The notes below the pieces were generated by a model that saw nothing but the letters and a program-made list of their open reading frames with translations, ran no database searches and was not told where the DNA came from. DNA of 36,252 nucleotides from Lachnospiraceae bacterium (GTDB lineage Bacteria; Bacillota; Clostridia; Lachnospirales; Lachnospiraceae): positions 1 through 36,252 of the forward strand of contig JAQXFO010000042.1 of assembly GCA_029005135.1 (NCBI GenBank), in the 5' to 3' direction. Shown one piece after another: positions 4,732 to 25,815 of the stretch. The position numbers and the translations under genes were made by a program. Position 1 is the stretch's first letter. Each line of letters starts with the position of its first letter.

Positions 4732-4776
4732 ATGTTATGATGAATGCCACCACAATCTCGGGAAAGGAGATCAGGG

Positions 4777-5697
4777 ATGATCAAACGCTCATTATGGCCA
4801 GTATATCTGGGTGCGATGCTGTCGGCTGCTGTCTGGACAGCACCGGAGGAGGTGTGCGCCGGAACGGAAGAGATGACGGAGGAAGGCCGCTCCGCGGAAG
4901 ACGGCGTTGAGGTAGTGCCCTCGGCTGCGGCAGCGGAGACCGCCATGAGAGAAGAGTCTGAGGCTGCGGCAGTGACCGACCCTGAAGCCGAGGAAGGCGA
5001 AGTAAAAGAGGCGGCAGAGGGCAAAGAGGCTGCCGTCAGCATAGATGACACAGACGAGAACGCATCGGAGCCCGCGCCCGGGTCCGAACCGGGGCCTGAG
5101 CCCGAGCCGACGCCCGGCCCGGGACTTGCTCCGGAACCTGTGACCGAGCCCGCACCCGAGCCGGGTCTTACTCCGGAACCAGAGCCTGAACCGGAGCCAG
5201 AGCCCGAACCGGAATCTGAGCCCGAACCGGAACCTGAGTCCGCACCGGAACACGTGTCCGATTCAGATCCGGTATCCGAGCCGGCCCCTGTATCGGCGGA
5301 AGAGCCGTCTCAGAGCGATCCCCCGGTTTCCGAGCCGGCACCGGCCGCGAGGCCGTCGGCCGTGCCTCGTACGGCAGCGGTCACGGCTTCACCGGCCGGC
5401 CTCGCCGCCGCTGCAGCTGCGGATCATGCCGCAGCGATGACGACCGCGGCACAGTCGGCGCAGAACTCCCGGACGTATACGATGGCGAAGCGTGACAGGA
5501 CAGCGGAGGCAGCTTCCGAAGAAGCCGGCTATTTTATGATACGCCGCGTCAGCGGACTGCCGTCGGTCAATATCAGCGGCGGCATCCTGCCTGTTTTCGA
5601 GTCGAAAGCGGATGATGCCCGGGCAGCGGGATACCTGGCTTTCGGCGGCAGCGCGGTGATCCTGGAGGATGTGGGCGACGGCTGGGCCTATGTGTAA
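4777..5697 (+). CDS. N-terminal part of wall hydrolase: signal peptide, Pro/Glu linker, partial SH3 domain
   Basis: 306 aa up to the TAA. The start at 4777 is chosen because SD GGAAAGGAG sits seven bases upstream and [19 protein letters not shown] begins a signal peptide likely cleaved near VCAG; the frame runs 11 codons further up without support. Residues about 30-95 are acidic and Ala-rich. Residues about 98-190 are a Pro-Glu repeat (PEPEPEP), typical of wall-spanning spacers. Residues about 250-306 begin a bacterial SH3 domain ([18 protein letters not shown] ... DGWAYV). By itself this product would be exported but have no catalytic domain. It is followed in frame by the rest of the hydrolase, so it should be read with the entry for 4777-6675. 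Confidence 0.7.
5068..5352 (+). repeat. Degenerate tandem repeat encoding a Pro-Glu spacer
   Basis: The six-base period GAGCCC/GAACCG with variants encodes PE dipeptides. The low complexity also creates a spurious Phe/Arg/Leu-rich frame on the opposite strand. Confidence 0.8.
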
Positions 5698-9945: not shown

Positions 9946-9979
9946 GCCCCTTAAAAGATAAACTTTGGGGAAGGGAAAT

Positions 9980-12448
9980 ATGAGTACAATTTTAGACACC
10001 ATGGGGATGGATAAGGACAGTTTCAAAGAGGCTGTCGAGAGACAGGTTCGTGTCCTGTTTCGGAAAAACAAGGATGAGGCCTCCGAGGAAGAACTGTTCC
10101 AGGCGGTGGGCTCTGTTATTGAAAATGTGGTTATCAATAAGTGGATGGATTCCTGTGAGGCCTACAAGACCCAAAAACCGAAGACCGTCTACTATTTGTC
10201 GATGGAATTCCTGATGGGACGGGCCATGGGCAACGACCTTATCAACCTCGGCGCCTATGATGATGTCCGTGAAGCGCTGGACGAACTTGGACTGAATCTG
10301 AATGCGCTGGAGGACTGCGAACCGGATCCGGCTCTGGGCAACGGCGGTCTCGGCCGTCTGGCGGCCTGCTTCCTGGATTCTCTGGCGTCGCTGGGCTATT
10401 CCGCCTACGGCTGCGGTATCCGCTATCATTACGGTATGTTTAAGCAGGAGATCAGCGACGGTTTCCAGAAGGAAGTGCCGGATAACTGGCTCAAGAACAA
10501 TTATCCTTTCGAACTGAAGCGTCCGGAGCATGCCAAAGAAGTGCGTTTCGGCGGCAACACCCGCATCGAATTCGACCCGGTGCTCCAGAAAAACCGCTAT
10601 ATGCACGAGAACTATGCTTCCGTCCGTGCGGTGCCGTATGATGTGCCGATCCTCGGTTACAAAAACAACGTCGTCGATACGCTGCGTATCTGGGATGCCG
10701 AGCCGATCGTTGATTTTGAACTGTCCAGTTTTGATCAGGGCGATTACGCCAAGGCCGTTGAACAGCAGAATCTGGCCCGTACGATCACAGAGGTTCTGTA
10801 TCCGAATGACAATCATCGCGCCGGCAAGGAACTGCGCCTGAAACAGCAGTATTTCTTTGTTTCGGCTTCTGTTCAGGAGGCCGTGCGCAAATATGTGGAG
10901 ATGTTCGGCGATCTGAGCCATATGCCGGAAAAGGTGGCTTTCCAGATGAACGACACCCATCCGACGGTGGCGGTACCGGAACTGATGCGCGTTCTGATGG
11001 ATGACTACGGACTGGAGTGGGACAAGGCCTGGGATATTACCACGAGAACCTGTGCTTACACCAACCATACCATCATGCAGGAAGCCCTGGAGAAATGGCC
11101 CATCGACCTCTTCCGTACACTGCTGCCGCGTGTCTACCAGATCGTGGAAGAAATCAATCGCCGTTTCGAAAATGAGGTTCGCGCCAAATATCCGAATGAT
11201 GAATCCAAACTCAGAAATATGATGCCGCTCTATGACGGTCAGGTTCGCATGGCCTATCTGGCCATCGTGGGCAGCCACTCTGTCAACGGCGTGGCTGAGC
11301 TGCACACCGAGATCCTCAAGAACAATGTTCTGAAGGATTTCTATGAGATGATGCCGGAAAAATTCAACAATAAGACAAATGGTGTCACCCAGAGACGTTT
11401 CCTGCTCAAGGGCAATCCGAAGCTGGCCGCCTTCATTACGGATAAGATCGGCGAAGGCTGGATCACGGATCTGTCTCAGCTGTCCGGACTGAAGGAACTG
11501 GCCGATGATCCGGAAGCCAGGGAGGCTTTCATGGCTATCAAGAAAGACAACAAGGTTCGTCTGGCTGCCTATATCAAGGCCCATAACGGCATTGATGTCG
11601 ATCCGGATTCCATTTTCGATGTCCAGGTCAAACGTCTCCACGAGTACAAGCGTCAGCTGCTCAATATCCTTCATGTGATGTACCTCTACAAGGAACTGAA
11701 GGAGAATCCGGGCATGCCCTTCTATCCGAGGACCTTTATCTTCGGCGCCAAGGCTTCTGCCGGTTACCGGATCGCCAAGCTGATCATCAAGCTCATCAAT
11801 TCCGTAGCGGATGTGGTAAACCATGACGAATCCCTCCAGGGCCGTCTGAAGGTCGTTTTCATCGAAGATTACAAGGTCAGCAGCGGCGAGATCATTTTCG
11901 CGGCCGCCGATGTCTCCGAACAGATCTCGACAGCCTCCAAGGAAGCTTCCGGTACCGGCAACATGAAGTTCATGATGAACGGTGCGCCGACGCTGGGCAC
12001 CATGGACGGTGCCAATGTGGAGATCGTCCGCGAGGTGGGAGCCGAGAACGCCTTCATCTTCGGTCTGAGCTCCGACGAGGTTATCAATTTTGAAAAGAAC
12101 GGCGGTTACAACGCCCGTGATATCTACGAGAAGGATCCGACGATCCATTGCATCCTGGATCAGCTGATCGACGGCACCTTCTCCGACGATAAGGAACTGT
12201 TCCGTCCGATTTACGATTCTCTTCTGAACGGCCAGTATGGCGGCCGTCCGGATCCGTACTTCATCCTGGCTGACTTCTGGTCTTATGTCAATGCCCAGAA
12301 GGCAGTCGAGAAGGCTTATCGTGACAGAGACGGCTGGGCACGCAAGGCCCTTCTCAACACCGCCTGTGCCGGCAAGTTCTCCTCTGACAGAACGATCCGG
12401 GAATATGCCGAAGAGATCTGGCATCTCGAGCCGATCACCGTCGGTTGA
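9980..12448 (+). CDS. glgP: Glycogen/alpha-glucan phosphorylase
   Basis: Phosphorolyses alpha-1,4-glucan chains to glucose-1-phosphate (GT35 family, PLP-dependent; cytosol). The protein is 822 aa, the usual length. YLSMEFLMGRAMGNDL and GNGGLGRLAACFLDSLASLG form the active-site front, VQFxRLHEYKRQ is present as VQVKRLHEYKRQLLN, and the PLP-binding Lys is K663 in EASGTGNMKFMMNG. The start is ATG 9980, with SD GGGGAAGGGA; a TTG five codons upstream is in frame but would fall on top of that SD. No distinct promoter is seen in the short gap after ileS. It ends in a strong terminator. No glgC or glgA is in this window; glgB is 11 kb downstream in its own unit. Confidence 0.96.
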   Translation: MSTILDTMGMDKDSFKEAVERQVRVLFRKNKDEASEEELFQAVGSVIENVVINKWMDSCEAYKTQKPKTVYYLSMEFLMGRAMGNDLINLGAYDDVREALDELGLNLNALEDCEPDPALGNGGLGRLAACFLDSLASLGYSAYGCGIRYHYGMFKQEISDGFQKEVPDNWLKNNYPFELKRPEHAKEVRFGGNTRIEFDPVLQKNRYMHENYASVRAVPYDVPILGYKNNVVDTLRIWDAEPIVDFELSSFDQGDYAKAVEQQNLARTITEVLYPNDNHRAGKELRLKQQYFFVSASVQEAVRKYVEMFGDLSHMPEKVAFQMNDTHPTVAVPELMRVLMDDYGLEWDKAWDITTRTCAYTNHTIMQEALEKWPIDLFRTLLPRVYQIVEEINRRFENEVRAKYPNDESKLRNMMPLYDGQVRMAYLAIVGSHSVNGVAELHTEILKNNVLKDFYEMMPEKFNNKTNGVTQRRFLLKGNPKLAAFITDKIGEGWITDLSQLSGLKELADDPEAREAFMAIKKDNKVRLAAYIKAHNGIDVDPDSIFDVQVKRLHEYKRQLLNILHVMYLYKELKENPGMPFYPRTFIFGAKASAGYRIAKLIIKLINSVADVVNHDESLQGRLKVVFIEDYKVSSGEIIFAAADVSEQISTASKEASGTGNMKFMMNGAPTLGTMDGANVEIVREVGAENAFIFGLSSDEVINFEKNGGYNARDIYEKDPTIHCILDQLIDGTFSDDKELFRPIYDSLLNGQYGGRPDPYFILADFWSYVNAQKAVEKAYRDRDGWARKALLNTACAGKFSSDRTIREYAEEIWHLEPITVG

Positions 12449-12470
12449 TCCGTAATAACGTACCACTCTG

Positions 12471-12500
12471 CCGCTCCCCGCTGCCCGGGGAGCGGTTTTT
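12471..12500 (+). terminator. glgP terminator
   Basis: A 10-bp G+C-rich stem (CCGCTCCCCG 12471-12480 with 12486-12495), loop CTGCC, then TTTTT. Confidence 0.9.
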
Positions 12501-12588: not shown

Positions 12589-12615
12589 TTTACACTGGCG
12601 GCGGATTCTGATAAT
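12589..12615 (+). promoter_or_regulatory. Possible promoter of the TPR-AAA+ gene
   Basis: TTTACA (12589-12594) and GATAAT (12610-12615) are separated by 15 bp, slightly short. The rest of the 230-bp gap is a G+C-rich stretch followed by an AT-rich one with no other recognisable site. Confidence 0.4.
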
Positions 12616-12680
12616 ATTTGAATGAATATGGGTTTTTATAGGCTTCTGTCAATATGACGAAGTTAACGAGGTGACGAATA

Positions 12681-15245
12681 GTGGATAAAGCTGAATATAA
12701 AGAAAAGCTTGATGAGATCAACCGTCTGGCTGAAGAAGGCGATTTTGCCGGTGCCGCTGCGATCGTTGATGATATCGACTGGCGCCATGTCAAAAGCGTC
12801 CGGACTCTCTGCATTGTCGGGGAGATCTATGAAGCCAACAAGCGCTATGACGATGCGATCCGCGTCCTGAAGTATGCCTATAAGCGTTCTTCGGTCAGTA
12901 AGACCGTGCTGTATCGTCTGGCGGAGCTTTCGGCCAGGACAGGGGATGCGGAATCAGCCAGAGCCTATGCCGGGGAATTCCGTGAGGTCTCACCGAACGA
13001 TTCTTCCAACTATATTCTGGATTATAAGATCAGCCGTGTGGAGGGCCGTCCCCTGGAGGACCAGATCCGCATTCTGGAGGACCTCAAGGAACGCGAATAC
13101 AGCGAGCGCTGGGCCTATGAGTTGGCACGGCTGTATTTCCGCAGCGGACAGGAGGATAAGTGCGTCGACGAGTGCGATGATATGATCCTCTGGTTCTCGG
13201 AGGGCCGCTATGTGACGAAGGCGATGGAACTGAAGATGCAGATCCGTCCGCTGACACCGGCTCAGCAGAAAAAATATGCCATGAGAGACCGGCAGCTGAC
13301 GGCAGCGATGACCGCCGCGCCGGCTCCCGCACCGGCCAGAAGTGCTGCCGAAGAGCGCGCGGTGTCTCCGGTTGAGACAGCGGCACCGGCCTCTGTCAGC
13401 CAGGCCGCGCCGGCCGCCCCGGCTCCTGTCCTTCCGGAAGAAGCTGCGGCACCTTCCGATACCATGGCCGAGAGACGCCAGGCCATTTCCTCCGATAATC
13501 AGATCCAGACCCGTCTGGCCGATTCGATCCGGGCTGTTCTGGCCGGATCACGGGCCGCGGAAGCTGCCCGCCTGTCGGATGACGATTACAGCATGGACGC
13601 CGAGTCCTACTCCGACGAGGATGTTCGCGATTATGTCCGCTCCAACACCCGGGCGGTGCCCTTTAATGTTCGCAGCCTCGAAGCGGAAGCCGACGGTGAC
13701 GCCGGCGAGACATCGGCAGAGGATGGCCAGATGACCATCGATGATTTCCGCGAACCGCAGGAGCTGGATCTCAAGGCCTTGTTCAATGAGACGACGGCCA
13801 ATCTGGCCAGCGCCATCGCCAGCGGCGATTTTGAGAAGACAGATACCGTCCGCAATGAAGACGAACCGGCTGTCGAGGAAACGCCGGCTGCGGAGGAAGC
13901 GCCGGTTAACGAGAAAGCCGCGGCTGTCGAGGAAACACCGGCTGCCGACGAAGCGCCGGTTATCGAGGAAGCGCCGGCTGTCGAGGAAACGCCGGCTGCC
14001 GAAGAAGCCCCGGCTGCCGAGGAAATGCCGGCTGCCGAGGAAGCGCCGGCTGCCGAAGAAGCGCCGGCTGCCGAGGAAGCCCCGGCTGTCGAAGAAGCGC
14101 CGGCTGCCGAAGAAACGCCAGTTATCGAAGAAGCCCTGGTTTCGGCGGAAGAACCGCCTCTGGGGCTGACCCGGGAGTTTAATTTCAGTGAAGAACTTCG
14201 CAAGGCGATGGACAGCGGCGAAAGCATGGCTGAGGCCGCCAGAAGCGTCAGCGCCAGAGCCTCCGAGGAAGCCGCTGCCGCGACGGAAGACCTGATGCCT
14301 CGGGTGCCGGCTGAATCCGAGATCCCGGCTGAGCTTTTTGCTGATGAACCGGAAGAGAAGGCAGCACCGAAGCTGGCCGATCTGTCCCTTCTGACCGATG
14401 ATTTCGATGCGGTGGAAGAGAGCCGTGCGATCATTGACGATATTATGGAAAAACCGGAGAGCCTTTCCCGTCTTGAGATCGAGCCGCGCCGCTTCAATGA
14501 GGTGGAGACCAAGGTCTTCAGCTATTTTGCACCTATTCCGGGTGTGGCGGCTCAGGTCACTCAGGCGTTGGCCGATGTCCATAACAATGCCGGCGACAAG
14601 ACCTCCCGCAGCGGTAATATTATCGTTGTCGGCCGTCAGAGTTCGGGCAAGACCCGTCTGGCCGACGCCATGATCCTGGCTATTTGCCATGATCTGAAGA
14701 TCGAAGGCGCGAAGATCGCCCATATTATCGCGGAGGATCTCAACAAAAAGGATCCTGTGGAAGTGGTGGCCCGCATGGCTGGCGGCTTCCTCGTGATCGA
14801 AGGCGCCGGTGCCCTGTCGGAGAAAACGGTCGGGCAGCTGAATCGGGCGATGGACTTCAGAACCGACGATCTGGTCATTTTCCTGGAAGACGAGAAGGCG
14901 GATATGAACCGCCTGCTGGAGAAATATCCGGAGTTTGCCGCCAAATTCACATCCCGTGTCGTCGTGCCTGTCTTCACCAACGATGAACTGGTTACCTTTG
15001 CCAGAACCTATTGCAAGGAACTGGGCTACAAGATGGATGAGATGGCAATCCTGGCCCTTTACACCATGATCGGTGACAATCAGAAGGACCGTGAGCCGGT
15101 GACCGTCGGCCGTGTCCAGGATATGATCGATACCGCGATTCTCCGGGCTGACAAGGCCGCCCGCCGTTTCGGCCGCAAGCTGGGCCGCCGCGACATCGAT
15201 GACTCCGGCCGCATCATGCTTCACGAAAAAGATTTCAATTTCTGA
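12681..15245 (+). CDS. TPR protein with C-terminal CbbX/SpoVK-like degenerate AAA+ domain
   Basis: 854 aa, function unknown. Residues 1-210 form TPR-like helical repeats (GEIYEANKRYDDAIRVLKYA, LYRLAELSARTGDAESARAYA, YELARLYFRSGQEDKCVDEC). Residues about 220-600 are a long, acidic, Ala/Pro/Glu-rich linker with 15 copies of a hexapeptide repeat. Residues about 630-830 align by eye with CbbX/SpoVK-type AAA+ ATPases: Walker A GRQSSGKT (651-658), the Walker B position FLVIEGAGAL (703-711 region), then DDLVIFLEDE, LLEKYPEFAAKFTSRV and a lid region. Family Walker B reads LFIDEA; here Asp is Glu707 and the catalytic Glu is Gly708, so nucleotide may be bound but poorly hydrolysed. The start is GTG with SD GAGGTGA six bases upstream. 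rsmA follows after 42 bp and is probably co-transcribed. No signal peptide or membrane segment is seen, so a cytosolic scaffold is plausible. Confidence 0.75.
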   Translation: MDKAEYKEKLDEINRLAEEGDFAGAAAIVDDIDWRHVKSVRTLCIVGEIYEANKRYDDAIRVLKYAYKRSSVSKTVLYRLAELSARTGDAESARAYAGEFREVSPNDSSNYILDYKISRVEGRPLEDQIRILEDLKEREYSERWAYELARLYFRSGQEDKCVDECDDMILWFSEGRYVTKAMELKMQIRPLTPAQQKKYAMRDRQLTAAMTAAPAPAPARSAAEERAVSPVETAAPASVSQAAPAAPAPVLPEEAAAPSDTMAERRQAISSDNQIQTRLADSIRAVLAGSRAAEAARLSDDDYSMDAESYSDEDVRDYVRSNTRAVPFNVRSLEAEADGDAGETSAEDGQMTIDDFREPQELDLKALFNETTANLASAIASGDFEKTDTVRNEDEPAVEETPAAEEAPVNEKAAAVEETPAADEAPVIEEAPAVEETPAAEEAPAAEEMPAAEEAPAAEEAPAAEEAPAVEEAPAAEETPVIEEALVSAEEPPLGLTREFNFSEELRKAMDSGESMAEAARSVSARASEEAAAATEDLMPRVPAESEIPAELFADEPEEKAAPKLADLSLLTDDFDAVEESRAIIDDIMEKPESLSRLEIEPRRFNEVETKVFSYFAPIPGVAAQVTQALADVHNNAGDKTSRSGNIIVVGRQSSGKTRLADAMILAICHDLKIEGAKIAHIIAEDLNKKDPVEVVARMAGGFLVIEGAGALSEKTVGQLNRAMDFRTDDLVIFLEDEKADMNRLLEKYPEFAAKFTSRVVVPVFTNDELVTFARTYCKELGYKMDEMAILALYTMIGDNQKDREPVTVGRVQDMIDTAILRADKAARRFGRKLGRRDIDDSGRIMLHEKDFNF
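13869..14138 (+). repeat. Fifteen tandem 18-bp units encoding a hexapeptide repeat
   Basis: Units read [A/V][A/V/I]EE[A/T/M]P with a few variants (VNEKAA, AADEAP, VIEEAL), giving residues 397-486 of the TPR-AAA+ protein. Near-identical 18-bp DNA units make copy-number change by slippage likely. The reverse strand shows a spurious repetitive frame. Confidence 0.85.
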
Positions 15246-15287
15246 TAATGACGGATCAACAACCGGAAATAAAGGCAGAATAGAGCT

Positions 15288-16160
15288 ATGGCAGAACCAT
15301 ATTTGGGTAATCCGCTGCGCTGCGAGACCGTACTTCGAAAGTTCGGTTTTTCGTTCCGCAAGAAGTTCGGACAGAATTTCCTGATAGACAGTGATGTTCT
15401 GGAGGGAATCGTGGACGCTGCGGCCGTCGATGAGGAGGATGTCGTCCTGGAGATCGGCCCGGGCATCGGGTCGCTGACTCAGTATCTGGCAAGCCGGGCC
15501 CGCCGGGTCATCTCCGTCGAGATCGACAGGGCGCTGCTGCCGATCCTTGATTATACGCTGGCGGACTGGGACAATGTCAGGATCATCAACAACGATATCC
15601 TTAAGACGGATATCCGGGCGATCGCCGGGGAGGAAAACGGCGGCCGTCCGCTGAAGGTTATCGCCAATCTGCCTTACTACATCACGACACCGATCATCAT
15701 GAAGCTGTTTGAAAACGGTGCCCCCATCAGTTCGGTTACGGTCATGGTTCAGAAGGAGGTGGCTGACCGCCTGGCGGCGAAGCCCGGCAGCAAGGCCTAC
15801 GGGGCCATCACGCTGGCGGTGCAGTATTACGCATCGGTGGAACCGGTGATTGAAGTCGGACCGGAAAGCTTTATCCCCGCACCGAAGGTGTCTTCCGCCG
15901 TTATCCGTCTGAATCGCTATGAGGAAAAGCCGGTCACCGCGGCCCATGAGGACATCCTTTTCAAGCTGATCCGCGGCTCCTTCAATCAGCGCCGCAAGAC
16001 CTTTGTTAACGGCGCTGCCAATTTCGAGGGCCTGTCCTATACCAAGGATGATATCCGTGCCGCTCTGGCTCACGCCGGCCTCCCGGAATCGATTCGGGGC
16101 GAAGTCATGTCACTGGCGGAATTTGCCGCCGTCGCCGATTATCTGGGCGAAAACAGCTGA
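15288..16160 (+). CDS. rsmA: 16S rRNA (adenine1518-N6/adenine1519-N6)-dimethyltransferase
   Basis: Dimethylates two adjacent adenines in the 3' helix of 16S rRNA with SAM during 30S maturation (synonym ksgA). 290 aa, the family length. FGQNFLID near the N-terminus, SAM-binding EIGPGIGSLT (55-64), acidic VEIDRAL (78-83) and the catalytic NLPYY motif (127-131) are all intact; the C-terminal domain contains GSFNQRRKTF. The upstream AAAGG is about 14 bases from the ATG, a weak SD, which fits reliance on the preceding TPR-AAA+ gene for expression. A strong GAAA-loop terminator follows. Confidence 0.97.
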   Translation: MAEPYLGNPLRCETVLRKFGFSFRKKFGQNFLIDSDVLEGIVDAAAVDEEDVVLEIGPGIGSLTQYLASRARRVISVEIDRALLPILDYTLADWDNVRIINNDILKTDIRAIAGEENGGRPLKVIANLPYYITTPIIMKLFENGAPISSVTVMVQKEVADRLAAKPGSKAYGAITLAVQYYASVEPVIEVGPESFIPAPKVSSAVIRLNRYEEKPVTAAHEDILFKLIRGSFNQRRKTFVNGAANFEGLSYTKDDIRAALAHAGLPESIRGEVMSLAEFAAVADYLGENS

Positions 16161-16191: not shown

Positions 16192-16229
16192 AAACCGCCG
16201 CCTTCCGGAAACGGAAGGGGCGGTTTTTT
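16192..16229 (+). terminator. rsmA terminator
   Basis: The stem pairs AAACCGCC and CCTTCCG (one bulged G) with CGGAAGG and GGCGGTTT around a GAAA tetraloop, followed by six T. Confidence 0.92.
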
Positions 16230-16358: not shown

Positions 16359-17264
16359 ATGAAAAAGACAATAGCGGCTCTTCTGAGCCTGGTTATTCTG
16401 ATTACGGCTCTGGCGGTGCCCTCAGCCGTTCTGGCAGCGGATAAAACCTATGTGGCCCTGGGTGAGAATCTGAATGCGGATGAAAGGGCGATCGTCCTTG
16501 AACTTCTGGGCCTGACCGAGGAATCGCTGGCCGGGGATACGACTCTGACCGTTTCCAATGCCGAGGAGCATCAGTATCTGGATGCCTATCTGGACGCGTC
16601 GGTGATCGGGACCCGCGCCCTGTCATCCTGCAAGGTCACGACCCGGGAGGAGGGCAGCGGCATCACCGTCGAGACCCATAATATTACCTACTGCACACCG
16701 GCCATGTATGAAAATGCGCTGGCGACAGCCGGCCTCAAGAATGCGGACATCGTCGTGGCCGGACCCGTCGGTATCTCCGGTACCGCCGCCCTGGTCGGTG
16801 CCATGAAGGCCTATTCGGCCATGACCGGAGCCGAGATCACCCCGGAACTGGTGGACGCCGCTACCAATGAACTGATCACCACCAGCGAGGTGGCTGAGAA
16901 TGTGGGTGACAGTGAGAAGGTTGCTCAGCTGATCGCGGCGGTCAAGGAGATCATTCTGAGTCATGATTATGAGACGGATGAAGATATTGACGCCGCGATT
17001 CGGGAAGTGGCGGCTCAGCTCGGCCTCACCTTGTCCGATGAGGATGTTGCCGAGATCCGTGAATTGATGAAGAAGATCGCCGCTGCCGATGTTACGGCGG
17101 AATCGCTGACGGAGCAGGCCAAAAATGTTTATCAGGATCTGAAAAACAGCGGCTTTGATCTGTCGCAGTACGGGATCTCCGCCGAGGATGTCAACGGCTT
17201 TATGGCGAAGTTCGGTCAGCTGCTGGCGGACATCATCAACTGGTTCAAGGCCTTTTTCAACTGA
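16359..17264 (+). CDS. DUF1002 family secreted protein (YpuA-like)
   Basis: 301 aa, exported; function unknown for the family. A clear signal peptide (MKKTIAALLSLVILITALAV, cleavage likely after AVLA) precedes the DUF1002 body: YVALGENLNADERAIVLELLG, the central GTRALSSCKV segment and VVAGPVGISGTAALVGAMKAY, the most recognisable family motif. The C-terminal third is helical and acidic and ends in WFKAFFN. AAGGAGG gives a strong SD. B. subtilis YpuA belongs to the same family. It stands alone between two terminators and converges on the rubrerythrin gene. Confidence 0.88.
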   Translation: MKKTIAALLSLVILITALAVPSAVLAADKTYVALGENLNADERAIVLELLGLTEESLAGDTTLTVSNAEEHQYLDAYLDASVIGTRALSSCKVTTREEGSGITVETHNITYCTPAMYENALATAGLKNADIVVAGPVGISGTAALVGAMKAYSAMTGAEITPELVDAATNELITTSEVAENVGDSEKVAQLIAAVKEIILSHDYETDEDIDAAIREVAAQLGLTLSDEDVAEIRELMKKIAAADVTAESLTEQAKNVYQDLKNSGFDLSQYGISAEDVNGFMAKFGQLLADIINWFKAFFN

Positions 17265-18488: not shown

Positions 18489-18552
18489 GATATTTTTGAT
18501 CAGGAATCGTGAGGGATACACACCGGGGGTTCGGGCCATCGGCGGCTCTTCG

Positions 18553-18561
18553 TGGTATAAT
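18553..18561 (+). promoter_or_regulatory. Extended -10 promoter of the DUF2298 gene
   Basis: TGGTATAAT: a TGn extension and perfect TATAAT (18556-18561). No -35 consensus is seen. A start near 18568 excludes the upstream in-frame ATG at 18509 and supports ATG 18596. Confidence 0.6.
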
Positions 18562-18595
18562 AGCGGCACGATCTTGGATGCGAGGAGTGATAGTT

Positions 18596-20782
18596 ATGCT
18601 TGATATTGTCGCCTGGTACGGCGTTCTGCTTCTTCTGGGGCTGGCAGCTCTGCCGCTTACGCGGCTTATCTTCTGCCGTGCCGATGACGGCGGGTGGCTG
18701 TTTTCACGGGTGACAGGCTGGTTTCTGGCCGGCTTGCTTATGTGGCTGGCCAATGTGACGCAGCGGCTTCCCTTTACGGCAGCGGGCTGTTTTTTCACCG
18801 CAGCGGCGGTCCTGTCGCTGAGTCTTATCATTTTGATCGTCAAAGGCCGCCGCGGCAGTCTTTTCCGGGACGTATCCCCGAAGGTGATGCTGACGGAGGA
18901 ACTGATCTTTGCGGGGATTTTTGCCGGGGCCGTGTATCTCATCGGCTTCCGTCCCGAGGCCTTCGGCACGGAAAAGCTGATGGACTACGCTTTTATCACC
19001 GCCTGTCTGCGCAGCGATACGATGCCCTTCATCGATCCCTGGTACAGCGGCTGTCCTGTCAACTATTATTACGGCGGCCAGTATATGACGGCCTATCTTA
19101 TCCGGCTTGCGGGCACCACGGCCGGTATGGGCTACAATCTGATGCGTGCCACGCTCTGGGCCATGAGCCTGACACTGCCCTTCAGCCTTGTGCGTATGAT
19201 GAAGATCCGCGCCGGGGGCGGCCGGGCCGGAGCAGCCGGTGTGCTGTCGGGGCTGGCGGTCGGCGCCTGTGCCAACGGCCACTATTTGGTCTTCGGCCTG
19301 GTGATACCGCTGCTTGACAGATTGACGGGCGGGCGTGTGTCGGCCGCCGTCGGTCTTGACGGCGGGAGCGGCAGCTATCACTACTGGTTTCCGTCTTCTA
19401 CGCGCTACATAGGCTATTTTCCGGAGACGTCGGATAAGACGATCCATGAGTTTCCGGCTTATTCTTCGGTTCTCGGGGATCTGCATGCCCATTACATCGA
19501 CCTGATCTTCGTACTTACCGCGGCGGCGATTCTCTATGCCTATGCCGTCCGGCGGGAGGAAATGTCTCCGTCGCCGCATCCGACGCTCCGCTGTCTTCTC
19601 CGGGAGGCCCTGGCGGATCCGGCCCTTATCCTGGCCGGCGTCATGATCGGTGCCTTCCGGTGGACAAATTACTGGGATTACCCGATCTATACCGTTATCG
19701 CCGCGGCGGTGATCATTTTCGTTCAGCTGAAAAAGCATCGCCGGGATATCCTGCGGTTTCTTGTTAATACGGTGACCGCGCTGGCCTTTTTGTGGGGAAT
19801 CGGCTATCTGGTTTCGCTGCCCTTTACGAGTCGTTTCACCATGATTGCTTCACAGATCAGCCGGGTATCGGCCTCGACGCCCTTCTATCAGCTTATGATC
19901 CTCTGGGGTGTGCCGGCGCTGATGGTGATCGGCCTTTTCGTGCTGATGCTTGGTGATTACCGGGAGAGCCGCGCGGCGGCCGCGGAGGGTGTCGGAAAAG
20001 TCAGAAGGCGGGGGGCCTTTCTGCGCCTGCTGGCACAGGTTAAGACGGAAGACCTGACGGTTCTGATCTTCGGCGCCGGGGCTCTGGGCCTTATCCTTAT
20101 CCCGGAACTTGTCTATGTCAAGGATATCTACGGCAGCGAGTACGCGCGGGCCAATACCATGTTTAAGCTGACCTATCAGTCTTTTATCCTGCTGGGCATC
20201 GTGACCGGCTATGTGCTGATGCGGGCTTTTGATAAGAGAGGCCGCCTGCGCCGGGTGATGGCCGGCTTCGGTATCGGCTATGTGCTTCTGACGGCCCTTT
20301 ACACGGGAAATGCCGTCAACAGCTGGTTCCGGCCTCTGGATACGGAACGTACCGGCACCGATGCCTCGGTATTCATCGACGGGGATTTTGCGTCGGACTA
20401 CGGCGCCGTGAACTATTTGAATACCTATGCGGAAGACCGAAGTGTTGTTCTGGAGGCACCGGGGGACAGTTACAGTGGGTACGGCCGGGTCTCGGCGGCC
20501 ACGGGCCTGCCGACGGTGCTGGGCTGGTATGTTCACGAATGGCTGTGGCGGGGGGATACGGCGGACCTCAATGCCCGGGCGGCAGATATCGAAGCGATCT
20601 ATACCTCGCAGGACGCGGCAGAGGTCAGGGCACTGATTGAAAAGTATCACATTTCCTATATCTACATCGGCGCCCTCGAACGGCAGAAGTACCCTCTTCT
20701 TAATGATAAGCTGCTGCAGTCTCTCGGCAGCGTGGCTTATTCGGATGGGGTGACGACGTATATTATGAAAATGGACGGCTGA
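18596..20782 (+). CDS. DUF2298 (YYY-motif) polytopic membrane protein
   Basis: 728 aa with more than ten hydrophobic segments. Family motifs are present: EAFGTEKLMDYAFI, then NYYYGGQ (the YYY motif), HEFPAYSSVLGDLHAHYIDLIF, TNYWDYPIY, and ARANTMFKLTYQ, with an acidic residue cluster in the first extracytoplasmic loop as in GT-C glycosyltransferases. The C-terminal 150 residues are soluble (LNTYAEDRSVVLEAPGD ... YIYIGALERQKYP), as in related mannosyl- and oligosaccharyl-transferase-like proteins. The family has no established function that I know of; a lipid-linked sugar transferase is inferred. SD GAGGAG precedes ATG 18596 by eight bases. It is divergent from perR and has no obvious terminator before metG. 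It is unusual in Firmicutes compared with archaea and Chloroflexi, to my knowledge. Confidence 0.85.
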   Translation: MLDIVAWYGVLLLLGLAALPLTRLIFCRADDGGWLFSRVTGWFLAGLLMWLANVTQRLPFTAAGCFFTAAAVLSLSLIILIVKGRRGSLFRDVSPKVMLTEELIFAGIFAGAVYLIGFRPEAFGTEKLMDYAFITACLRSDTMPFIDPWYSGCPVNYYYGGQYMTAYLIRLAGTTAGMGYNLMRATLWAMSLTLPFSLVRMMKIRAGGGRAGAAGVLSGLAVGACANGHYLVFGLVIPLLDRLTGGRVSAAVGLDGGSGSYHYWFPSSTRYIGYFPETSDKTIHEFPAYSSVLGDLHAHYIDLIFVLTAAAILYAYAVRREEMSPSPHPTLRCLLREALADPALILAGVMIGAFRWTNYWDYPIYTVIAAAVIIFVQLKKHRRDILRFLVNTVTALAFLWGIGYLVSLPFTSRFTMIASQISRVSASTPFYQLMILWGVPALMVIGLFVLMLGDYRESRAAAAEGVGKVRRRGAFLRLLAQVKTEDLTVLIFGAGALGLILIPELVYVKDIYGSEYARANTMFKLTYQSFILLGIVTGYVLMRAFDKRGRLRRVMAGFGIGYVLLTALYTGNAVNSWFRPLDTERTGTDASVFIDGDFASDYGAVNYLNTYAEDRSVVLEAPGDSYSGYGRVSAATGLPTVLGWYVHEWLWRGDTADLNARAADIEAIYTSQDAAEVRALIEKYHISYIYIGALERQKYPLLNDKLLQSLGSVAYSDGVTTYIMKMDG

Positions 20783-23713: not shown

Positions 23714-23781
23714 CAGATAAAAGACGGTTTCCGGCAGCGGAGGCCGCGTTGGACACCTTCATCAGGAAAAGGGGACGTGTC

Positions 23782-25815
23782 ATGAGAACATTTTCAGAAG
23801 TTGAATTCACGGAATATGACCAGTATCTCTTCGGGCAGGGTACGCATTACGCTGTGCACCGCAAGCTGGGCGCCCATCCGGCGGAAAAGGATGGCAGGAC
23901 AGGGGTGTATTTTGCGGTATGGGCACCCCATGCCGCCTATGTGTCGGTTGTCGGCAGCTTCAATGACTGGGACCGCGACAGGCATCCGATGTTCTGCGAT
24001 CTGTCGATCGGCGTCTGGACGGCCTTCATCCCGGAAGCCAAAGCCGGTGATCTGTATAAATATCTGATCGTGGCGCCGGATGGCCGGGAACTCTACAAAG
24101 CCGATCCCTATGCTGCCTATGCCGAGATGAGGCCCGGCACGGCTTCGATCGTGTGGGATACGGACGAATCGGCGTGGACTGACGACAAATGGCTGAAAAA
24201 GCGCACCGACTTTGACATTGACAGGGAACCGATGGTCATCTACGAGTGTCATATCGGTTCCTGGATGAAGCACCCGGAAGCGGACGGCCGTGAACAGGGG
24301 TTCTATAATTACCGCGAATTCGCGGAACGGATCGCCGATTACCTCCTGGATATGCAGTATACCCATCTGGAACTTCTGGGCATCGCCGAGCATCCTTTTG
24401 ACGGCTCCTGGGGTTATCAGGTCACCGGCTATTTTGCACCGACCTCACGGTACGGTACGCCGGATGACTTCCGCTATATGATCGATTATCTGCACAATAA
24501 GGGAATCGGCGTTATTCTTGACTGGGTGCCGGCGCATTTCCCACGGGATATGGCGGGTCTGGCCGAGTTCGACGGCACCTGCCTGTATGAGCATCCGGAT
24601 CCCCGTCTTGGCGAGCATCCGGACTGGGGTACCAAGATATTCAATTACGGCTGCCCGGAGGTCAGCAATTTCCTGATCGCCAGCGCTTTGCACTGGATCG
24701 AGGATTATCATATCGACGGTCTGCGGGTGGATGCCGTTGCCTCCATGCTGTATCTGGATTACGGCCGCCGGGATGGCGCCTGGGTTCCGAACATTTACGG
24801 AGAAAATAAGAATCTTGAGGCCATTGAGTTTTTCCGCCACCTCAATTCTCTGCTGATGGGCCGCCATAAGGGTGTCGTGATGATCGCAGAGGAATCCACC
24901 GCCTGGCCGCAGGTCACCGGCGATGTGACCAACGGCTCCCTCGGCTTTGCCCTCAAGTGGAATATGGGCTGGATGAATGATTTTCTGGAGTACATGAAGC
25001 TGGATCCGTATTTCAGAAAATACAATCACCACAAGATGACCTTTTCTACCTCCTACGCCTACAGCGAGAAATATGTCCTTGTGCTTTCCCATGACGAGGT
25101 GGTTCATCTGAAATGCTCGATGCTGGAGAAGATGCCCGGCCTTGACGGTGACAAGTTCGCCAATCTTCGCGCCGCCTATCTCTACATGCTGGGCCATCCG
25201 GGCAAAAAGCTGCTGTTCATGGGCCAGGAATTTGCTCAGAGACGCGAGTGGTCCGAGGAGAGGGAACTGGACTGGTATCTGCTGTCGGAGCCGCTTCACG
25301 CCGGCATGAAGGACTATGTGCGTGAACTGTGGCGTCTCTACCGCAAATACCCGGCTCTCTATGCGACGGATTATGATCCGCAGGGCTTCGAGTGGATCAA
25401 TGCCGATGACTGCGACCGCAGTATTTACAGCTTTATGCGGAAGACGGAAAAGGGAAAGAATCTGCTCTTTGTTCTCAATATGACGCCGGTCCGGCGGGAG
25501 GATTACCGCGTCGGCGTGCCGCATGAGGGCATTTACCGCCTGATCCTGAATGCCCAGGATCCGAAGTTCGGCGGCAGTCATTATGTCCGCCGCAAGACCT
25601 ACCATGCCGCTTTGGGCGAGTGTGACCGCCGGCCGTACTATCTGGCCTATGATCTGCCGCCCTATGGCTGTGCCGTCTTCGAATTCGATGCCGAAGCGCC
25701 CACCGCTGCCGGGGAAGCCGCGTCGCCGGCTGTGAAAAAACCGGCGGCAAAAAAGGCAAAGAAGCCGGCTGCGAAGAAAACGACGACAAAAAAGGCGGCT
25801 GGCCCGAAAAAGTAA
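23782..25815 (+). CDS. glgB: 1,4-alpha-glucan branching enzyme with Lys/Ala-rich C-terminal tail
   Basis: Introduces alpha-1,6 branches into glycogen (GH13). 677 aa: N-terminal CBM48 (about 40-140, VYFAVWAPHAAYVSVVGSFNDW split here as VGSFNDWDRD), catalytic barrel with nucleophile D317 (GLRVDAVASM), acid/base E370 (MIAEEST) and D438 (LSHDEVVH), then the C-terminal beta domain. The last 26 residues are KPAAKK-type repeats with more than ten lysines, reminiscent of histone H1 or bacterial histone-like tails and not part of the normal enzyme. ATG 23782 has AAGGGGA upstream; a TTG eleven codons earlier is less likely. It is monocistronic, between its own promoter and a bidirectional terminator. 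Confidence 0.95.
   Translation: MRTFSEVEFTEYDQYLFGQGTHYAVHRKLGAHPAEKDGRTGVYFAVWAPHAAYVSVVGSFNDWDRDRHPMFCDLSIGVWTAFIPEAKAGDLYKYLIVAPDGRELYKADPYAAYAEMRPGTASIVWDTDESAWTDDKWLKKRTDFDIDREPMVIYECHIGSWMKHPEADGREQGFYNYREFAERIADYLLDMQYTHLELLGIAEHPFDGSWGYQVTGYFAPTSRYGTPDDFRYMIDYLHNKGIGVILDWVPAHFPRDMAGLAEFDGTCLYEHPDPRLGEHPDWGTKIFNYGCPEVSNFLIASALHWIEDYHIDGLRVDAVASMLYLDYGRRDGAWVPNIYGENKNLEAIEFFRHLNSLLMGRHKGVVMIAEESTAWPQVTGDVTNGSLGFALKWNMGWMNDFLEYMKLDPYFRKYNHHKMTFSTSYAYSEKYVLVLSHDEVVHLKCSMLEKMPGLDGDKFANLRAAYLYMLGHPGKKLLFMGQEFAQRREWSEERELDWYLLSEPLHAGMKDYVRELWRLYRKYPALYATDYDPQGFEWINADDCDRSIYSFMRKTEKGKNLLFVLNMTPVRREDYRVGVPHEGIYRLILNAQDPKFGGSHYVRRKTYHAALGECDRRPYYLAYDLPPYGCAVFEFDAEAPTAAGEAASPAVKKPAAKKAKKPAAKKTTTKKAAGPKK

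Follow-up and report, generated by a model that had tools for sequence, protein, structure and literature searches.

A TPR–acidic linker–AAA+-like protein of the Lachnospiraceae and its putative origin from the CbbX/SpoVK/EccA clade

The AAA+ proteins CbbX, SpoVK and EccA are chaperones of one clade, each with a single target or context (Rubisco, MurG and secretion, respectively), as set out in the consulted part of PMC10659427. The same part of that paper defines the clade by a GY in sensor 1, an Asn placed 4 residues ahead of the first Arg finger, and a second Arg finger/sensor 2. A case of motif erosion is PcdA of Staphylococcus aureus, which the excerpt of PMC10602043 presents as a degenerate AAA+ protein turned assembly/localisation factor that hydrolyses slowly and needs hydrolysis.

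We analysed a window of 36,252 nucleotides (contig JAQXFO010000042.1) from a Lachnospiraceae bacterium, in which one ORF joins TPRs to an AAA+-like module. The protein shares the AAA+ module, the motif order and a small C-terminal part with the Rubisco activase CbbX and with SpoVK, the chaperone of MurG. Unlike them, it carries a long TPR-linker extension before the module and lacks the pore loop, the Walker B D-E and the sensor-1 Tyr; the window sequence is also without the first Arg finger. PcdA, according to the same excerpt, differs in being a McrB-family protein with EVE domains, and its likeness to our protein is limited to the AAA+ fold class and the type of alteration. The literature searched, with partial coverage, contained no description of the protein, no Pfam or NCBIfam model covered it over its full length, and no Pfam family matched its C-terminal 259 residues at E 0.01.

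Domain architecture and kinship

As shown in Table 1, the ORF encodes an N-terminal TPR domain, an acidic linker and a divergent AAA+ module. A TPR array followed by a nearly 400-residue acidic linker had been proposed in the preliminary description, and we confirmed both, the linker measuring about 408 residues. The TPRs span residues ~43–108; TPR_19 (2.9e-7 at residues 52–107), TPR_2 and TPR_14 exceeded their Pfam cut-offs. Identity to the window ranged from 35 to 60% for the TPR end (44 relatives) and from 21 to 53% for the AAA part (48 relatives), and by these alignments the TPR end is the more evenly conserved part. A chance ORF was ruled out, as the AAA regions are ~52% identical in other genera. 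On the minus strand, opposite the gene and rsmA, an 841-aa open frame (13548–16073) probably arises as a side effect of codon usage and of the tandem repeat.

Table 1. Coordinates of the features described in the window
Feature	Position	Strand	Basis or remark
glgP, alpha-glucan phosphorylase	9965..12448	+	TIGR02093, 1170.8 bits
Terminator-like hairpin, strong (11 pairs, 9 of them G-C), following glgP	12470..12496	+	pattern only
Promoter-like site before the ORF, 9 of 12	12589..12617	+	pattern only
Whole ORF, TPR–acidic linker–AAA+-like module	12681..15245	+	GTG start, 854 aa
N-terminal TPR domain, conserved KCxEECDxxILWFxEGxYVxKAxELK stretch at its end	12681..13268	+	Pfam, alignment
Acidic linker, residues 200-607, presumably disordered	13278..14501	+	composition
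Probable remnant of linker motif, GQMTIDDF, residues 344-367	13710..13781	+	matrix score
Tandem repeat, 18/54-bp, within linker	13866..14136	+	
Divergent AAA+ module of the CbbX/SpoVK/EccA kind	14466..15242	+	profiles
Walker A GRQSSGKT, residues 651-658	14631..14654	+	sequence
Walker B position FLVIEGAG, residues 703-710	14787..14810	+	sequence, alignment
rsmA, 42 bp downstream of the ORF	15288..16160	+	TIGR00755, 261.7 bits
Terminator-like site after rsmA	16201-16218		pattern
glgB, branching enzyme, 8.5 kb downstream	23749..25815	+	TIGR01515, 821.9 bits

For comparisons we used the window together with 54 of the 60 fetched loci, hereafter the 55 family rows, and 80 named near relatives, the best 80 of 564 candidates, 65 of which entered the motif counts; 120 sequences were thus aligned to CbbX. 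As the fetched loci were chosen along the match ranking of a single-sequence search, fractions of 55 are not family-wide rates. Six loci stand outside the 55 rows (L074, L085, L087, L088, L090 and L091); they were missed by tblastn at 1e-3 and later seen by profile.

The linker (408 aa) contains 24.5% D/E and 7.8% K/R. Its length varies from 272 to 1184 aa in the family rows and reaches 1442 in the named set, and no additional domain was found in the linkers of four long homologues. In the window it carries the probable remnant of a motif that is fuller in other clades (consensus EEQITGQMSIEDILAEWE); a short motif, EKQITGQMNIEDVMKEWE, stands within the otherwise drifting linker, for example in L078 from residue 748. 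The GQMTIDDF stretch of the window scored 25.4 against a shuffle threshold of 3.9, with a matrix trained on the same set, and 46 of 114 linkers (55 family, 59 named) passed this matrix, built from 27 seeds of that set. In 40 genomes, all 16 matches to the consensus lay inside the target ORF, as assigned by contig and ORF size, and a pattern search of neighbour ORFs gave none. The motif was set aside as the basis for a reading, since the majority of the window's named near relatives do not show it and a simple pattern detects it in 1 of 20 sequences of the L226–L245 set.

Results of the profile comparisons place the module by sequence kinship in the CbbX/SpoVK/EccA higher-order AAA+ clade. The protein matched the models of SpoVK (TIGR02881, 4.7e-9), EccA (TIGR03922, 6.8e-8) and CbbX (TIGR02880, 1.4e-7) weakly, missing the curated cut-offs in each case (35.7 vs. 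422.95, 31.5 vs. 466.65 and 31.1 vs. 459.25 bits, respectively), while a 49-row profile of the module reached CbbX (3zuh, 3syk) at 1.3e-20 and EccA1 at 1.2e-10. The proposed likeness of the C-terminal domain to CbbX and SpoVK thus held. A structural match to a characterised family would have spoken against the preliminary description; at the sequence level such a match exists for CbbX, though without conservation of the defining residues. EccA of type VII secretion has TPRs before its AAA+ module, as the available part of PMC10659427 describes and as in our protein; unlike EccA, the latter has a very long linker and a degenerate module, and scores far below the model's cut-off. No secretion genes were seen among the annotated ORFs of the window. 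The own genome also encodes an intact paralogue (L246, SpoVK/CbbX-like, 490 aa), to which hhalign aligned the module with a probability of 96.7. As this paralogue keeps GNPGTGKT, YVGQT, FIDEAY, AGY, NPGLKSRF and NAR, the motif losses are specific to the target protein.

Loss of catalytic residues and decay of the module

Walker A is intact in the window, as had been stated, and its Lys is found in 44 of the 55 family rows and in all 65 near relatives. The Lys and Thr/Ser are both present in 43/55; nucleotide binding, perhaps with slow turnover, therefore seems to be selected there. In the remaining 12/55 the Lys or Thr is lost, with at least three changes on the tree, which is unrooted. At Walker B we confirmed the replacement of Asp-Glu by Glu-Gly in the window (IEGAG at 706–710). 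This pair is not conserved across orthologues, however: the first position is Glu in 47/55 and 58/65 and Asp in 3/55 and 3/65 (6/120), while the second varies, with Gly in 3/55 and 15/65 and otherwise Lys, Arg, Asn, His, Asp and others. The catalytic Glu itself stands in 5/55 and 1/65 (L156), that is 6/120. An orthologue with D and E together, which if joined with ATPase activity would have counted against the preliminary description, was found once among the 120 sequences (L084), and E-E five times (L040, L043, L057, L083 and L156).

The remaining elements of the motor are altered as well, in line with the earlier remark on the sensor/arginine-finger region. The columns of the CbbX pore loop are gaps in 120/120, and the sensor-1 Tyr was found in 0/120, the window having E-D-E at the place of A-G-Y. 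The first Arg finger is Arg in 11/55 and 0/65, with Ala in 50/65, and is absent in the window. The Asn 4 residues before it is kept in 24/55 and 4/65 (Tyr in the window), and where CbbX has the Arg of NAR the window has Gly, though the alignment is weak at this second Arg finger/sensor 2.

Decay has gone further in one group of 16 loci (L226–L241). None of the 12 alignments that cover the P-loop showed G-K-T/S, the other four starting after it; the stretch at the Walker B position is still recognisable, often as GxDLIIExAG, and 13 of the 16 carry more than 40 residues of extra sequence between the two AAA subdomains. In L242–L244 the TPR part is present and no AAA match was obtained. In L088 and L091 the TPR and AAA parts form two adjacent ORFs; L090 looks likewise split, though a gap of N falls at the break (L090 and L234 contain runs of N), and in L085 both parts lie in one ORF. 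Long EARRKAEEEA-type repeats were observed in the AAA half of L088 and L091, and of L090 with its N gap. None of the trees is rooted, and branch support is by SH-aLRT only; we read the changes as losses and not gains because of the kinship to intact AAA+ proteins.

These data favour, with somewhat better than even confidence, a pseudo-ATPase adaptor that does not hydrolyse ATP and descends from a CbbX/SpoVK/EccA-clade AAA+ chaperone. The ancestral chaperone would have lost its ATP-hydrolysing and substrate-threading parts, and the module would now serve as a folded head for binding or self-association, in whatever oligomeric state it may adopt. The TPR end would dock a partner, and the linker, if disordered as its composition suggests, would act as a flexible tether that tolerates changes in length. 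A head with a surviving Walker A, as in the window, may still bind nucleotide as a switch; this is plausible because PcdA, in the part of its description cited above, still needs slow hydrolysis. The loss of the motor from a protein that was itself kept points to a scaffold. Against this reading stand the widely intact Walker A, the slow hydrolysis that PcdA still needs, the D-E of L084, the five E-E sequences and the 11/55 rows with an Arg finger, and all residue losses depend on the alignment. Of the scaffold-like NTP-binding protein suggested at the outset, the scaffold-like part stood, with hydrolysis probably absent; NTP binding is unlikely in groups without Walker A.

Distribution across the family

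With a single sequence as query, the AAA part was detected in 164 of the 200 genomes searched in the same family, and the AAA profile at 1e-20 matched 172/200, mostly with one match each among the matches listed. Of these 172, 157 exceed in strength the best hit that the order search gave outside the family (2.2e-27); the other 15 do not and are doubtful (G019, G033, G046, G048, G055, G059, G063, G068, G075, G108, G119, G132, G134, G172 and G192) and may be ordinary paralogues. The 41 matches of the order search outside the family were provisionally taken for SpoVK/CbbX-type proteins. Within the family, the TPR profile was run on the 28 genomes failing the AAA profile at 1e-20 and matched 24 of them, all at 1.4e-33 or better. 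Together, 181–196 of the 200 genomes, which are drafts with contig breaks, therefore hold at least one end of the protein.

In the class sample, the TPR profile at 1e-12 matched 11 of 291 genomes, 10 of them in the family. The sole exception (L245 of G641) is a weak TPR match preceding four AAA+ domains in a protein from a genome of another family, the last three of these domains having intact-looking motifs. The 80 named relatives (best 80 of 564) bear titles such as Lachnospiraceae, Blautia, Fusicatenibacter and Eubacterium, some only Clostridia, Clostridiales, Eubacteriales or Firmicutes.

A multi-copy mobile gene was ruled out: the whole protein has a single match in its own genome, and among the matches listed there is mostly one per genome elsewhere. 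A defence gene was likewise rejected, as none of the PADLOC families matched the protein at 0.001. The special system next to rsmA that had been suspected was not supported either, for the gene is family-wide, mostly with one match per genome, and its neighbours differ by clade.

Gene neighbourhood and candidate roles

In the window the gene probably shares an operon with rsmA and not with glgP. The former is the likelier partner because a terminator-like hairpin follows glgP and rsmA starts 42 bp past the gene; the hairpin also led us to reject glgP in the window as proof of an operon. Other ORFs of the window include a DUF1002 protein after rsmA (16359–17261), whose cluster lies downstream of the gene in 10/55 rows, a DUF2298/Chlor_Arch_YYY membrane protein (18509–20779; 486.5 bits) and a protein with a long PEPEPE-type repeat (4744–5694; Pfam match below cut-off only). 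The neighbourhood survey of the 55 rows, 80 near relatives and 19 further loci revealed neighbours that differ between clades.

Glycogen is the commonest neighbour theme, and storage-glucan metabolism is, tentatively, the first candidate for the process served. As a special case of the adaptor, the protein could serve GlgB and further alpha-glucan enzymes as an adaptor or regulator, a role we regard as possible and in keeping with the service of CbbX to Rubisco and of SpoVK to MurG described in the part of PMC10659427 cited above. In 28/55 loci glgB lies directly downstream on the same strand, with gaps of −8 to 443 bp (≤33 bp in 18 loci); this adjacency occurs in three distinct clades with good support. 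Furthermore, glgP, glgB or a GH13 amylase occurs in 41/55 loci, always on the same strand; anywhere in the locus, glgP was found in 8 rows, an amylase in 5 and JetC in 8. Among the near relatives (best 80 of 564), glgP is upstream in 40/80, not all contigs being long enough to reveal it. GlgA and GlgP are both present in each of the five nearly complete genomes that lack a TIGR01515 match, the GlgP of G089 being a fragment below cut-off.

Several observations weigh against the glycogen link. The glgB adjacency changes four times on the unrooted tree, and L086 and L089 have the order jet genes–target–amylase–glgB, which suggests one old cluster broken in different ways; the link may therefore go back to a single ancient adjacency and not to repeated gains. 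Between glgP and the gene in the window lies the strong terminator-like hairpin, and neither glgB nor glgP was found in the 19 loci L226–L244 (8–18 kb). The 86% complete G186 retains the gene, while glgA, glgB and glgP were not found there. Of nine genomes without a TIGR01515 match, seven have an AAA match (among the matches listed), G075 being doubtful and G006 having glgB at a contig edge after all; the GlgB genome search missed one such glgB (L195). Conversely, G162, G175 and G183 have glgB and neither end of the protein among the matches listed. Co-occurrence says little in any case, as GlgB is in 191/200 genomes (among the matches listed).

An unlikely alternative makes the protein a partner of a JetABC-kind SMC complex without JetD. 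Jet-type SMC genes were observed upstream of the target in L070 (2–6721) and in L055, L069, L071, L082, L083, L086 and L089; those of L070 match the JetA3, JetB3 and JetC3 models. Of the 200 genomes, 30 have a strong JetC3 match, and in 20 of these the target follows on the same strand at a distance of up to 3 kb (among the matches listed). Another 16 JetC rows are weaker; for the 14 with a listed target place, a comparison by eye put JetC and the target on different contigs. JetD_C is absent from six of eight genomes with Jet-type loci and on other contigs in two. Moreover, all 16 loci L226–L241 lie behind dnaX, most with ybaB- and recR-like genes; over L226–L244 we counted dnaX in 16 of 19 loci, a recR-like cluster in 14 and a CvpA-like membrane protein in 11, the RecR, YbaB and CvpA names being assigned by eye. 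Yet no JetC match at 1e-30 was obtained in 156/200 genomes, the own genome included (among the matches listed), and most of these have the gene. In 10 of the 30 strong-JetC3 genomes the two are not adjacent (nine on other contigs, three of these by single-sequence search only, and one at 7.7 kb), and the assignment of JetA and JetB comes from models in one locus (L070) and from similarity in eight loci.

Broader still, and improbable, is a family-wide core adaptor with a stepwise dismantled AAA+ engine that would take the place of JetD in JetD-less JetABC lineages and couple the SMC complex there, and glycogen enzymes in other lineages, to its TPR platform. Equally improbable is a still functional AAA+ ATPase whose Walker B is unusual: the intact Walker A of the window and its near relatives and a Glu at the Asp position in 105/120 would fit it, but the second acidic position varies, Ala prevails at the first Arg finger, the pore loop is missing and whole groups have no Walker A. 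A ribosome-related factor linked with RsmA is very improbable, since rsmA, although directly downstream in 77/80 near relatives (best 80 of 564), upstream in a second clade and probably in the same operon in the window, is a housekeeping gene found in only 20/55 loci across the family.

For the pseudo-ATPase adaptor, the neighbours name GlgB, GlgP, RsmA and JetABC as candidate partners. With the TPR end conserved and the nucleotide pocket ranging from an intact Walker A to a missing P-loop, the family offers a natural experiment in the conversion of an ATPase to a scaffold. Most genomes sampled from this dominant gut family keep the protein, and the class sample gave one occurrence outside; a basic role in the family is therefore likely.
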